Positions 15,402-20,213 of a stretch of DNA of 64,000 nucleotides are shown in pieces (position 1 is the first letter of the stretch; each line of letters begins with the position of its first letter). The stretch comes from Ruficoccus amylovorans (GTDB lineage Bacteria > Verrucomicrobiota > Verrucomicrobiia > Opitutales > Cerasicoccaceae). The DNA lies in assembly GCF_014230085.1 (NCBI RefSeq), contig NZ_JACHVB010000064.1, positions 124,001-188,000 of the forward strand, in the 5' to 3' direction. The position numbers were made by a program, and so were the translations under genes. The notes beneath the pieces are model-generated. The model saw nothing but the letters and a program-made list of their open reading frames with translations, ran no database searches and had not been told where the DNA came from.

Positions 15402-15515
15402 GCGCAGAGGTTAATTCCCGCCCGGCGTTCCGCCAAGCCGCGATGTCATAATATTTTCACCGCAGCATTGGAGTGGATGAACCTCCTTGTTCTGTCGAGG
15501 CCGGTGGACGTGACC

Positions 15516-16454
15516 TTATTCGAGAGGTCGCACACCGCTGGCCAGCAAAGTCTCGAAATACGGTTCCTGCTCTTCGCGGGCGACGATAGAGACATCGACG
15601 TGCTCGAAGCCCAGTTCCTTGAGCCACTGGTAGAGGGTGTTTTCGGCGAAGCCCAGCCAGGTGTCGGCGTAGAGGTCGCGGGCTTTTTCAAAGGCGTGCT
15701 CCTTGAGGTCGAGCACGATGAGCCGCCCGCCGGGCTTGAGGATGCGGTGCGCCTCGGAGAGGGCACGGAAGGGCTTGCGGGCGTGGTGGAGGGCCTGGCT
15801 GAGGTAGGCGAGATCCACGCTGGCATCCTTCAGCGGGACGTCCTCGATGTCGCCGAGCTGGTAGTAAAGGTTGTCAATGCCGTGACGTTCGGCCAGGTCG
15901 GTGCCGACTTCGACCATTTTGGGGGAGTTGTCGATGCAGTAAACCGCTTCGGCCCGCTGGGCCAGCAATTGCGCCAGGACGCCTTCGCCCGCGCCGAGGT
16001 CGGCGATCTTGATTTTGGGGGTCAGGTGGAGGAGGAAATGCCCGATGCCCTCCCAGGAGCGGCCGGGGCAGTAGTTTTTGCCCAAACGCCCGGCGACCTG
16101 GTTAAAATACTGCTCGGCCTGGCGGCGGCGCTTGTCGAGGATGCGGGCGAGGTTGGCGGCATCGATTTCCAGCTCGGGCTGGTGGGCCGTGGCGCGGCAG
16201 GCGGCCTCGATGAGCTGGCGCTCGCCAGCGGGGAGGTTGCGCGCGAGGGAGTAAAAGCTGCGCTTGCCGTCGCGGCGGTCGGAGGTCAGCCCGCCCTTGC
16301 GCAACAGGGAGAGGTGCGAGGAGATGCGCGACTGGCCCATGCCGAGGATTTCCTGAAGCTCCGCCACGGATAGCTCTTCTTGCACGAGCAGGGCCACCAC
16401 GCGCAGGCGGGTGGGGTCGGCCAGGAGTTTCAGCGTCTCAAGCGGGTCGGACAT
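15516..16454 (-). CDS. ArsR-family regulator fused to SAM-dependent methyltransferase
   Basis: A 312-residue two-domain protein. Residues 1-90 form an ArsR-type winged helix (LLADPTRLRVVALL, then MGQSRISSHLSLLRKGGL as the recognition region). Residues from about 140 form a class I methyltransferase with motif I ADLGAGEGVLAQLL at 151-164, IDNSPKMVEV, and ALHHARKPFRAL. This fusion is known in several phyla and is often tied to methionine/SAM-cycle control; here no met gene is adjacent. Metal-binding cysteines of classical ArsR are not evident. It is divergent from the AT-rich deaminase island. Confidence 0.87.
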   Translation of the reverse strand: MSDPLETLKLLADPTRLRVVALLVQEELSVAELQEILGMGQSRISSHLSLLRKGGLTSDRRDGKRSFYSLARNLPAGERQLIEAACRATAHQPELEIDAANLARILDKRRRQAEQYFNQVAGRLGKNYCPGRSWEGIGHFLLHLTPKIKIADLGAGEGVLAQLLAQRAEAVYCIDNSPKMVEVGTDLAERHGIDNLYYQLGDIEDVPLKDASVDLAYLSQALHHARKPFRALSEAHRILKPGGRLIVLDLKEHAFEKARDLYADTWLGFAENTLYQWLKELGFEHVDVSIVAREEQEPYFETLLASGVRPLE

Positions 16455-16571
16455 CGCGGGCCATGTTCGCGAGTCGTCAGGCCGGGGTCAATGCGAATGG
16501 AGGGGTGAGGGACTATGATGACGCATGTATGTGTAGTTGACATGTTGTATGGATTGTGATCAACATCTCCT

Positions 16572-18095
16572 ATGGCTGTGCCTGCGCAAAAGGAAAAACC
16601 GATTGAATCTCGATCTTATAATGAGTCTACAATAGAGCTATTGGAGGCTGAGCGTTCTCAAGAATTAGTCATCGCTCTATGTGGCCCTATCGGCACTCAA
16701 ATTCACCAAATAGCCGAGTTAATGAATGAGCGGCTAAATGAACATTACTGCTATGATTCTGAAGTTGTTAAACTAAGCAGTTTTATTGCTGAAAAACACC
16801 CATTTAAGGGACGAGAAGCTGAGCATTTCTCCAAAATTGAGCATTTTATAAACAGTGGAAATTCTATGCGGAATGCGTACGGTGCTGGCGTTCTTGCTGA
16901 ATTGGCCGTTCATTACATTAGTATTAAACGTCACTCTAAGATGAGTGAGAGGCAAGTTCATCCCGGTCCCGTCCGATTTTGCCACATTATCGACTCTATT
17001 AAGAATGTACATGAATTAACGCTCTTAAGGTCTGTGTATTCTGATGTTTTGGTTACAGTTGGTGCATATGATGATAAGGATCGAAGAGTTGCTTCGTTGA
17101 AAAGAAAAGGCGTCAGTGAGGAGGATGTGTATCGGCTCATTGATCGTGATTCTGGTGAAGAATATGATAATGGACAATCCGTCCGAAAAGTTTTTCCTCA
17201 ATGTGACTACTTTATTAATTGCAGTGATGATGTTGAAGATATTCAGGCTAAGGTTGATAGGTTCTTGGGATTGATTACTGGTAGTAGTCTTGTTACTCCT
17301 ACTAACGATGAAAGAAATATGTGCCATGCATATTACGCAGGGCTTAATTCGGCTTGTTTGTCGAGGCAGGTTGGTGCGTCATTGGCAGATTCTAACGGCG
17401 ATCTTATTGGGATTGGATGGAATGATGTCCCTCAATTTGGAGGGGGGTTGTATAGTGAGAATAGTGAGCAGGATAAGCGTTGCTTTAAGATAAAGGATTG
17501 TGTCTGTCATAATGACTTTGAAAAAAATGTCATCATTGACTCAATCGTAGAAGATCTAAGATCTAGTATGAAAACTGAAGATCTAGATCGCTTGCGTGAT
17601 AGACTTCGCCGGGGCCGAATAGGTCAGCTATTGGAATTTTCGCGTTCTGTTCACGCCGAGATGTATGCAATCCTCGATTCGAGCGCGAAGGGCGGTGGCC
17701 TAAGGATCAAGGGAGGTAGCATTTATGTTACCACGTATCCGTGCCATAATTGTGCGCGCCATATTGTCGCTGCAGGGATCCATAACGTCTATTATCTGGA
17801 GCCATATAGTAAAAGTATGGCTATTAGACTTCATGAAGATGCAATTACTGAAAATGTTAATAACTCAAATATGGTAAGGGTTATTCCGTACGAAGGTATT
17901 GGACCGGAGATGTTTGCTCGCTTTTTCAAAATGCCTGAAGGTGGGAGGAAAAAAAACGGGAAAATGATTCCCACGAGGGAAAAAAGCGCTATACTTCGGT
18001 CAAGTTTTTCAATGCGATCGTATCCTCAGTTGGAATCGATTGTTGTTGAATCGCTAAAACGTAAGCAACTAGTCGGAAATGGCAGCAAAAACTAA
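16572..18095 (+). CDS. Anti-phage dCTP deaminase-type protein (AvcD-like)
   Basis: A 507-residue protein. The C-terminal third carries the zinc deaminase signature SVHAEMYAI (H361, E363) and TTYPCHNCARH (C391, C394), as in deoxycytidylate deaminases. The N-terminal half has LCGPIGTQIHQIAEL (36-50), a P-loop-like strand-turn lacking the GK(S/T) lysine, as in a degenerate nucleoside-kinase-like domain. This two-domain layout matches AvcD and the dCTP deaminase defence family, which deplete dCTP on infection by making dUTP precursors. A Cys/His cluster at C304, C310, C312 and H313 may form a second metal site. Base composition is about 40% GC in 17041-17100 against 67% in 19741-19800, which points to recent transfer. 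It overlaps the next ORF by 17 bases. Confidence 0.85.
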   Translation: MAVPAQKEKPIESRSYNESTIELLEAERSQELVIALCGPIGTQIHQIAELMNERLNEHYCYDSEVVKLSSFIAEKHPFKGREAEHFSKIEHFINSGNSMRNAYGAGVLAELAVHYISIKRHSKMSERQVHPGPVRFCHIIDSIKNVHELTLLRSVYSDVLVTVGAYDDKDRRVASLKRKGVSEEDVYRLIDRDSGEEYDNGQSVRKVFPQCDYFINCSDDVEDIQAKVDRFLGLITGSSLVTPTNDERNMCHAYYAGLNSACLSRQVGASLADSNGDLIGIGWNDVPQFGGGLYSENSEQDKRCFKIKDCVCHNDFEKNVIIDSIVEDLRSSMKTEDLDRLRDRLRRGRIGQLLEFSRSVHAEMYAILDSSAKGGGLRIKGGSIYVTTYPCHNCARHIVAAGIHNVYYLEPYSKSMAIRLHEDAITENVNNSNMVRVIPYEGIGPEMFARFFKMPEGGRKKNGKMIPTREKSAILRSSFSMRSYPQLESIVVESLKRKQLVGNGSKN

Positions 18096-18285
18096 AAACC
18101 GGGATTCACGTCAACTAAAGCTTACCTTAAGTAATGAGAAGTCTATGGGTACCGCGCCTCAAATTGAGGGAACAAAGAGCAATATTATTTATTTTAAAAA
18201 TTGCGTAAATAGCGTAAATGAGGAGCGCCGTACAAGAGCCATGCGCTCGATCAGCCGCTTATACGATGAGTTGCGGGAGATGTGA
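18079..18285 (+). CDS. Small ORF overlapping the dCTP deaminase gene, unknown function
   Basis: A 68-codon ORF starting inside the 3' end of the deaminase gene (17-base overlap) and ending just before a terminator, so it is probably co-transcribed and translationally coupled. The product is basic at its start (MAAKTKNRDSRQLKL) and ends with a predicted amphipathic helix (NEERRTRAMRSISRLYDEL). No known family was recognised. It shares the low GC of the island. Described AvcID loci use an upstream RNA (AvcI) as antitoxin, so a downstream protein partner would be different. It could also be a non-functional tail. Confidence 0.55.
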   Translation: MAAKTKNRDSRQLKLTLSNEKSMGTAPQIEGTKSNIIYFKNCVNSVNEERRTRAMRSISRLYDELREM

Positions 18286-18303
18286 TTTCTGACATGAATA
18301 TGC

Positions 18304-18334
18304 AAAAAGGCCGGAGAATTCTCCGGCCTTTTTT
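18304..18334. terminator. Bidirectional intrinsic terminator
   Basis: Perfect palindrome AAAAGGCCGGAG-AATT-CTCCGGCCTTTT with A-run on the left and T-run on the right. It lies between the plus-strand deaminase module and the minus-strand greA-like gene and can end both. Confidence 0.92.
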
Positions 18335-18353
18335 AATAATATAAATTTCGCTC

Positions 18354-20213
18354 TTAGAGCTTCCGACCGGAGTCGATCCAGCGGCTGATGCTCTTGAGCT
18401 TCCAGTTGTGGACCTGGCCGTCGATCTCGGTCTGGACGGTGTTGCCGGCCTGCTTGTTCATGAGGGCCTGACCGAGCGGGGTCTTGTAGGAGAGGATGTT
18501 GTCCTCGGGGGCGGAGTCCCAGGCACCCATGAGGGCGTAGTTCTGAACCTCGCCGGAGTCGGTGTCCTCGATCTCGACGATAGAGCCGATGCCGACCGCG
18601 TCGTTGGTCACGTTGGTGAAGTCGGTCACGCGGGCGCGGGCGAAGTCCTTTTCCAGCAGGGCCTTGCGGGCCATGAGGGTTTCCTGGTCCTGGCGGGCCA
18701 TCTTGTACTCGGCGTTTTCGCGCAAGTCCCCATGTTCGCGGGCGACCTCGATGGCCTCCTTGTTTTCGGGGATCTTGACGTTGACCAGCTCTTCGTACTC
18801 GGCCTTGCGGTCGTCGAGGCTCTTCTGGGAGACGATAAGCTCGTCCACCTTCTGTTCGGCCTCGCCGGAGACGAGCTTCTGGATGCTCGGGAAACGCTTG
18901 ATGAAGCGGGCCAGCAGGGACTTCTTGGTCAGGTCCTCGAAGCCCTGGTTGAGGATGAGGCCCTGGGCGAGGTCACGGGCGATCTCGTCATTGGCTTCGG
19001 CCAGCATGTCGGGGATGAGCTCCTGGTCGTCGCTGAGGACGTCGGCGAGCTGGATGCGGCGGTTGCCGGTGCTCTGGAGCGCCTCGTAGTCGATGGCGTA
19101 AAGGATGGCGTTCAACATGCGCGGGCTGACCATGCCGTCAACCAGCTTGGCGAACTTGCGCGAATTGCGGTTCTTGACGATCCAGTACAGGACCGGGCCC
19201 TTGAGGTTTTGCTCGTTGAGCCAGCGCACGAAGTGCTCGTGAACCATCTCGCCGCAGTCGCGCTCGACCAGGAAGCTGATCGATTCGCTGGTCATCTTGC
19301 CCTCGGAATTCTTGAGGATGTCGATGAGGACGCCCTTCCAGTCTTCCGGGTAAACGCGGGTGAGCAGATCGAGGAAGCGCTTGTGGTAGCCGTTGGGGAT
19401 CTCGGCGGCGAGCTGGTTGAGGTCGTTGGCGCCGAGGATGAGGGACTTCGAGGTGGGCTCGATGGTTTCGGGGTCTTCGTCGAGGTGACGGGCGAGGTCG
19501 TTGCGGACCCAGACCCCGTGCAGACGCTCGGCGTAGCTGAGGCCCATGGCGTCCTTGACCGCTTCGGTCAGGTGCTCGAAAATATTGGGCAGGTCGCTGG
19601 CGATCTCTTCGACGTTTTCGGAGATTTGGTAAAGCTTTTCGGCCAGCGCGATCTTCTTCTTGGGCTGCTTGACCATGTAGAAATCCTCAAGGATTTCCTG
19701 CTCGGGCTTGAGGGGTTCGTCGCGCAGCGTGTACGGATCGGTCTTGCGGGAGGGGGTGGCGATGCGGGGATCCTTAACGAGGGCCTTCTTGGTCGCGGTC
19801 CACCACTTCTTGAACTTGACGGGGCCCAGCAGGCGGGCCAGGAGGTTTTCCAGCTCGGTCGGGCTGGCGCTCTGGTCCGGACAGCGGGCCAGGATATCGA
19901 CGACGAGGTCGCCCGGACGCTTCTTGATCATGTCGGCGATGACGTCGGGCTCGGTGCGCTGGCGCACAAGGATGCTGCTTTCGTCGAGCAGTTCGAGCTT
20001 GTCGGCGCAAAAGGCGGGGTCCATGGCATGACCGGGCTTTTCGTCGAAGTCGATGATAAGCTTGTCCTGCGCCTCGTCATAGGCGGTAATCTGGCCGAAG
20101 CCCCAACTGCGGTGCATGCAATAGGTGCCCGGTTGCATGGCTTCCAATTTGGAGCGCAAGCGTTTCATACCGGGCTTTTTTGCGATGATCGTATCGATCA
20201 CATCTTTGTCCAT
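18354..20213 (-). CDS. greA: GreA/GreB-family transcript cleavage factor with large N-terminal extension
   Basis: A 619-residue protein; ordinary GreA is about 158. The last 150 residues are Gre: coiled-coil tip EHGDLRENAEYKMARQDQ from 493, with D496 and E499 matching the acidic tip residues that reach the RNA polymerase active site, then the C-terminal domain GIGSIVEIEDTDSGEVQNYAL and YKTPLGQALM. The preceding 470 residues are an alpha-rich extension with an early SWGFGQITAYDEAQDKLIIDFD segment that resembles a CarD-like or Tudor-like fold. Chlamydial GreA has a comparable long form, so this supports PVC affiliation. The role of the extension is unknown. Confidence 0.9.
   Translation of the reverse strand: MDKDVIDTIIAKKPGMKRLRSKLEAMQPGTYCMHRSWGFGQITAYDEAQDKLIIDFDEKPGHAMDPAFCADKLELLDESSILVRQRTEPDVIADMIKKRPGDLVVDILARCPDQSASPTELENLLARLLGPVKFKKWWTATKKALVKDPRIATPSRKTDPYTLRDEPLKPEQEILEDFYMVKQPKKKIALAEKLYQISENVEEIASDLPNIFEHLTEAVKDAMGLSYAERLHGVWVRNDLARHLDEDPETIEPTSKSLILGANDLNQLAAEIPNGYHKRFLDLLTRVYPEDWKGVLIDILKNSEGKMTSESISFLVERDCGEMVHEHFVRWLNEQNLKGPVLYWIVKNRNSRKFAKLVDGMVSPRMLNAILYAIDYEALQSTGNRRIQLADVLSDDQELIPDMLAEANDEIARDLAQGLILNQGFEDLTKKSLLARFIKRFPSIQKLVSGEAEQKVDELIVSQKSLDDRKAEYEELVNVKIPENKEAIEVAREHGDLRENAEYKMARQDQETLMARKALLEKDFARARVTDFTNVTNDAVGIGSIVEIEDTDSGEVQNYALMGAWDSAPEDNILSYKTPLGQALMNKQAGNTVQTEIDGQVHNWKLKSISRWIDSGRKL

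Follow-up and report, generated by a model that had tools for sequence, protein, structure and literature searches.

The window, a 64,000-nucleotide stretch of the Ruficoccus amylovorans genome, holds an inserted cassette (outer limits 16505–18363) composed of a deaminase gene, a small open reading frame (ORF) overlapping its end and an intrinsic terminator, with 67 nt of inserted DNA before the deaminase. These limits follow from the breaks in homology to the empty methyltransferase–greA site of a same-genus genome (G128): similarity ends at 16504 and restarts at 18364, the right junction lying between 18334 and 18363, and the insert measures about 1.8 kb. Its left flank is a divergent ArsR-HTH/methyltransferase gene (15516–16454, minus strand; assigned by Pfam and by its place near greA in relatives), its right flank a convergent greA with a long N-terminal part (18354–20213, minus strand; Pfam, NCBIfam and relatives). 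Both flanking genes are found in 10 of the 10 family genomes searched. They lie about 120 nt apart in G128; the distance grows to about 1 kb in G163 and G387 and about 2.4 kb in G390, with other ORFs between, and the DNA similarity of G163 and G387 to the window is limited to the flanks. Because this spacer (16455–18353 in the window; L200–L202 in G163, G387 and G390) carries different ORFs in relatives and is empty in G128, it looks like a probable small insertion hotspot. G128 has a deaminase gene of its own (L004) some 80 kb away, 41% identical and interrupted by an in-frame TAG stop; the ORF behind it is open, with 70 codons and a QMDLQL motif.

At 41.8%, the GC content of positions 17001–18000 is below that of every other 1-kb block of the window (all at least 53.9%), which bears out the AT-rich island that an earlier note on this DNA had drawn from 40% GC in 17041–17100 against 67% in 19741–19800. 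The small ORF ends, as that note also held, right before a terminator, a 30-base perfect palindrome followed by a T run (18304–18333, plus strand; −22.2 kcal/mol, z −6.4) that is missing from the output of a simple consensus scanner.

The deaminase gene (16572–18095, plus strand) encodes 507 residues. Judged by profile scores, its product belongs to the defence family rather than to the housekeeping deaminases: it reaches 455.5 bits against NCBIfam NF041025 (anti-phage dCTP deaminase, curated cut-off 400) and E 3e-151 against the PADLOC dCTPase model, and scores 49 bits against the housekeeping ComEB model, under its cut-off of 219. It does not side with housekeeping dCMP deaminases, the outcome that had been raised against the defence reading. 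Enzymes of the anti-phage family deaminate dCTP/dCMP. Sequence profiles relate residues 90–234 to the adenylate-kinase-like chains 3h0k and 3lw7 and residues 254–416 to T4 dCMP deaminase, no single solved structure among the sequence matches covering the full length. An AlphaFold2 model built from an alignment with 28 relatives (mean pLDDT 81.4) returns the same two groups, kinase-like proteins and dCMP deaminases, in Foldseek. The T4 enzyme (1vq2) has 193 residues and shares the deaminase half, the P-loop-like half being absent from it. In enzyme family and in domain order the window protein agrees with NF041025 and the PADLOC dCTPase, whose models cover the deaminase alone, whereas the window adds a small partner gene.

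Both hallmarks of the family are present, the P-loop-like N-terminal half and the catalytic zinc motifs, H361-A-E363 (17652–17660, plus strand) and P-C391-H-N-C394 (17739–17753, plus strand). The HAE and PCxxC residues, picked out already from the single sequence, are unchanged across 29 aligned rows (the window and 28 relatives), N393 being variable. At the P-loop position stands GPIGTQIH, in which the Walker A lysine is missing, in keeping with the degenerate P-loop described before. A cluster of cysteines and histidine at residues 304–313 had been put forward as an extra metal site, a suggestion that stands for two of its members: C304 and C312 are invariant across the same 29 rows, as is C262, but C310 and H313 vary. 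C262 aligns with Cys19 of T4 dCMP deaminase (residue number counted from the alignment), a residue that holds a second zinc in that enzyme. Given the three invariant cysteines and this equivalence, a second metal site in the deaminase is likely, and it is by the alignment a feature of the clade, neither peculiar to the window nor new. The three positions are not cysteine in L017 and L020 (both of branch B, below) or in L006. Across the phylum sample the gene is uncommon, with a match at E ≤ 1e-10 in 8 of 387 genomes; the host genome has two more deaminase matches at other places, both distant.

The second gene of the cassette (18079–18285, plus strand) has 68 codons and shares 17 bases with the 3′ end of the deaminase gene, both ORFs being present as the earlier note had them. 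Three elements can be picked out along its product: QLKLTL, a clamp-binding-like motif fitting a published consensus (residues 12–17; 18112–18129, plus strand); NIIYF, a strand-like element aligned to VIxF/VIxL of relatives (18181–18195, plus strand); and a C-terminal segment (18214–18282, plus strand) presumed to be a helix from the low-confidence helix (block pLDDT 39–48) in a model of the relative L070. The product has no match in Pfam, NCBIfam or PADLOC, and a direct search with the 68-residue protein recovers its own copy alone among 88 genomes and nothing in plasmids, as would be expected if the ORF were a chance reading frame. A profile of 56 relatives built with the window excluded nevertheless ranks it first among 587 window ORFs (E 5e-5; runner-up 0.42). 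With the direct search returning no relatives, its homology rests on profile, position and motif, and by these sequence measures the 68-codon ORF is a real gene. A chance frame is already contradicted for the wider family by that ranking, by the positional motif family exceeding its controls and by dN/dS (both below); for the window we give it next to no credence.

Relatives of the deaminase were gathered from genome contigs with an alignment as query (the best 80 of 559 used, L021–L100), a scan in which a single protein as query gave no match, and from viral contigs (68 loci, L101–L168, three of them without a deaminase ORF in our script). In 78 of the best 80 of 559, an ORF of 45–120 codons starts within 60 nt of the deaminase stop. 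The pattern Q[LMI]x[LMFIV]x[FLIM], composed after inspection of the ORFs, occurs within the first 45 residues in 56 of these best 80, against a mean of 1.3 when residues are shuffled and 3 of 478 other gene ends of the same loci. Six further loci have a five-residue form, QL[DNQS]LF (L040, L041, L047, L052, L076 and L079). Under looser limits (start within 80 nt, 40–120 codons) 79 of the best 80 of 559 have the ORF and 63 have either form of the motif, the controls giving a shuffled mean of 1.55 per 80 (maximum 5 in 300 rounds) and 4 of 478 other gene ends. The candidate protein partner proposed from the one sequence has thus gained ground, an ORF of the same layout recurring at the same place across the clade.

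Seventeen of the best 80 of 559 have no regular motif, and some of these resemble the family in the C-terminal part alone. They comprise near misses (L023, L056, L060, L088 and L094), small ORFs with no clear motif (L028, L032, L057, L071, L077, L082, L089, L090 and L091), one whose start lies beyond the limits (L098), one of an upstream type (L100) and an open small ORF after a frameshifted deaminase (L095). The last, from Ensifer, was considered as a natural fusion of deaminase and small protein and rejected, since reading it in all three frames reveals a frameshift close to where the deaminase ends.

An iterated profile run, covering 160 loci with 7,682 small ORFs between them, yields 69 matches at E < 1e-3 in its third round; 67 lie directly downstream of a deaminase, and those of L107 and L057 are also downstream and on the same strand. 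The search spans a few kilobases per locus, so that absence elsewhere in these genomes is not implied. Its last round reaches 55 of the best 80 of 559 loci and 10 others; it misses the Pantoea small ORF (L014) and finds that of G128 weakly (E 0.007). Values of dN/dS are 0.05–0.44 in 10 of 12 small-ORF pairs with at least 50% identity (some loci entering two pairs), the other two pairs being identical or saturated. The small-ORF family evolves as protein, with purifying selection on the relatives.

The motif of the small protein is akin to those that bind the sliding clamp, of which Hda carries one. Excerpts from PMC13254535 give a revised clamp consensus of Q-phi-x-[L/M]-[F/L] and Q-phi-x-[L/M]-x-[F/L], and excerpts from PMC3716654 a clamp motif QL[S/D]LF. 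QLKLTL fits the published hexapeptide; its last residue is L, F being commoner at that place. Taken untuned, the published consensus is fitted exactly in 38 of the best 80 of 559 loci; shuffling yields 1.04 on average (never more than 5 in 500), the remainder of these ORFs contains none, and 3 of 478 gene ends fit. The motif-bearing set of 72 rows (63 loci, the window and 8 viral loci) divides into 66 hexapeptides and 6 pentapeptides, with L second in 61 and L (49) or F (17) fourth. As sequence, then, the small-protein motif matches the clamp-binding motif at both lengths, six residues and five, and the small protein may bind the clamp. RecB and UmuC also have the short Q-phi-x-[L/M]-(x)-[F/L] motif (excerpts from PMC3716654 and PMC13254535).

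The same segment could instead be a strand that binds the deaminase, as in an ordinary antitoxin tail, with its likeness to clamp motifs arising by convergence. Antitoxin tails often contain short hydrophobic strands, and L028, L032 and L082 retain the C-terminal part with the motif lost, both of which fit such a role. That both clamp registers are in use, and that the motif opens with Q, has L in most cases at the second place and L or F at the fourth, speaks against it, as does, in a weak test, the failure of AlphaFold2 to put the segment on the deaminase in a pseudo-fusion of deaminase and small protein from L070. There the small part has block-mean pLDDT values of 30–48 and no confident docking, and is unstructured save for a low-confidence C-terminal helix; the alignment held 10 more read-through rows and 33 deaminase rows (13 read-through loci found, L091 and L099 excluded). 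We consider a deaminase-binding strand a doubtful account of the motif.

A toxin that binds the clamp has a precedent. SocAB of Caulobacter is a toxin–antitoxin pair whose toxin binds the clamp through such a motif (excerpts from PMC9690074); there the toxin itself blocks the clamp, whereas in the window it is the small partner that bears the motif, the enzyme having nucleotides as its target. The open-licence PMC titles and abstract openings listed, a set outside which the original 2022 AvcID/dCTP-deaminase papers fall, give no protein partner or clamp link for this deaminase clade.

A first maximum-likelihood tree places 149 deaminases (11 of the 160 loci excluded as short, frameshifted or odd), labelled by pattern matching of the neighbouring ORFs, with 65 rows unlabelled and outside the counts of kinds. 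Kind A, a downstream ORF with the Q-motif, has 71 rows and needs two changes on the tree, against 12.3 in shuffles. The 9 rows of kind B, in which the downstream ORF carries a W-P-x-W-K-like motif, and the 4 rows of kind C, in which the upstream ORF has a terminal W, each occupy a single side of one branch in this tree, with L099, of kind A, placed among the C group. The window deaminase pairs, at support 96, with that of L021, from Oleiharenicola (Verrucomicrobiota). A second tree has 127 rows, the 25 numbered L137 or higher being dropped and three plasmid deaminases brought in; here the deaminases of ETEC p58 and of the other two small plasmids fall within the branch-C group with support 99. 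The newcomers are interspersed with the four C-labelled rows, which therefore cease to form a single side of one branch. Branch C stands apart from the large A group (support 98), to which the first tree assigns the window, so that the window deaminase and that of ETEC p58 lie on different branches. The label 'AvcD-like' given in the earlier note accordingly holds for membership of the defence family (NF041025, PADLOC) but calls for caution beyond that, the ETEC p58 deaminase and its kin being a separate branch. The ETEC H10407 p58 locus is, we assume, one of those studied as AvcID, and it stands for AvcID in the trees, which do not contain the AvcD proteins of V. cholerae and V. parahaemolyticus. 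Its 61-codon gene lies upstream of the deaminase, whereas the window gene lies downstream.

AvcID, a type III toxin–antitoxin system of Vibrio and E. coli ETEC, has a homologous deaminase, with presumed dCTP/dCMP depletion, and a reported adjacent RNA antitoxin; the window has a downstream small gene with a clamp-like motif instead, and little upstream room. In the portions of PMC10511110 drawn on here, AvcI is an RNA that binds and inhibits AvcD, works down to a length of about 171 bases, has a transcript slightly under 300, and is lost after transcription shut-off, which frees AvcD; PMC12409362, likewise in excerpt, describes AvcI as an RNA antitoxin inhibiting AvcD. By this family precedent the window deaminase might also be regulated by RNA, the small ORF being minor. 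Yet upstream of the deaminase lie 67 nt of insert within 117 nt of spacer, too short for an AvcI of about 171–300 nt unless the flanking gene were overlapped, although an RNA within the coding region of the cassette is possible. Rfam gives no family at the gathering score in 15500–19000 (the sub-gathering matches all fall within 18208–18395, around the terminator and the small-ORF end), and the small-ORF family is under selection at the protein level. Together these make RNA regulation of the AvcID type very improbable here.

We favour, with somewhat better than even confidence, a two-gene anti-phage cassette in which the clamp-motif small protein regulates the deaminase and so ties its activity to the replication clamp. 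The cassette would have been acquired horizontally as a two-gene anti-phage unit. Its deaminase, to go by its family, would turn dCTP/dCMP into dUTP/dUMP and starve phage DNA synthesis. The small protein would be co-translated with the enzyme and is probably disordered; its N-terminal QLKLTL may occupy the hydrophobic pocket of the sliding clamp DnaN, and its C-terminal strand and helix may bind the deaminase. It would in this way bridge the two, a protein taking the place of the upstream AvcI RNA, for which the 67 nt of insert leave too little room. In the direction that we prefer, the small protein would keep the deaminase in check until runaway phage replication shifts the numbers of free and loaded clamps and pulls it off the enzyme. 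This preference for an inhibitor is by analogy, AvcID, the only studied relative found, being under inhibition.

The same motif and the same co-translation would serve equally if the small protein were a recruiter that brings the deaminase to loaded clamps and has dCTP destroyed where DNA is copied, and excerpts from PMC9690074 describe Hda and repair proteins as using clamp motifs for recruitment. Against this, the dCTP pool is diffusible, so local recruitment would bring little obvious gain, and the AvcID precedent is an inhibitor (PMC10511110, in part). We think recruitment unlikely, though a contender to be taken seriously.

If clamp gating is right, the cassette would be a defence that senses what state the replication clamp is in. 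In the literature examined, silencing and activation of anti-phage deaminases are so far described for AvcID alone, through RNA. The small ORF would supply the second gene that the family's database models, built on the deaminase only, lack, and its motif offers a handle on replication sensing in defence. By record titles the clade extends over Bacteroidota, Pseudomonadota, Verrucomicrobiota and Myxococcota, with one record labelled Mycobacterium. Tentatively, and with the balance tilted against it, a large clade of anti-phage dCTP deaminases might be clamp-gated through a dedicated unannotated small protein, the small genes of other branches perhaps being counterparts and AvcI perhaps coding. 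Many such systems would then be wired to the replication machinery, a trigger hard for many phages to avoid.

Small upstream ORFs are frequent in the branch-C group. Sequence upstream of the deaminase is available for 12 of its loci: in 7 a 56–61-codon ORF with a terminal W lies just before the deaminase (L108 and L109 are near-copies), three closely related loci have a similar ORF without the W, that of L127 is shortened and L099 has its small ORF downstream instead; the count excludes L107, L110, L112, L116 and L119, which have little upstream sequence, and L120 and L131, whose deaminases are partial. Such ORFs of 56–61 codons, most with a terminal Trp, immediately precede AvcID-type deaminases at L015:3781–3966, L016:3738–3908, L018:3779–3952, L019:857–1027, L100:2706–2879, L108:409–582, L207:2348–2530 and L208:443–628. 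Five plasmids, one near-identical to L015 and two near-identical to each other, have annotated genes of 60–61 codons upstream of the deaminase, that of ETEC without the terminal W. Two pairs of upstream ORFs, L118/L123 and L207/L209, give dN/dS values of about 0.3 (0.36 and 0.29 for the two pairs, in either order). A profile of the branch-C upstream ORFs run against the downstream ORFs gives weak matches (best E 4.5), which makes homology between the two sets suggestive at most. At 56–61 codons, the upstream ORF of AvcID-type deaminases is about as long as the shortest AvcI reported to function (about 171 bases), and we conjecture that avcI may overlap it. Since these ORFs may be counterparts of the downstream gene, AvcI could also have a coding role. 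In the portions of PMC10511110 drawn on, however, AvcI does not fall under spectinomycin, and earlier work is reported to have seen no activation of AvcD by the drug, which disfavours a role for protein at AvcID.

A third deaminase branch has a different downstream small ORF, with a V-x-x-W-P-x-W-K-like motif (L017, L020, L121, L125, L128, L129, L130 and L135). In many K. pneumoniae records, small plasmids (NZ_CP033778.1 and similar) with a length of about 4.6 kb bear an anti-phage dCTP deaminase; the Klebsiella plasmid examined is of ColRNAI type and has six annotated genes.
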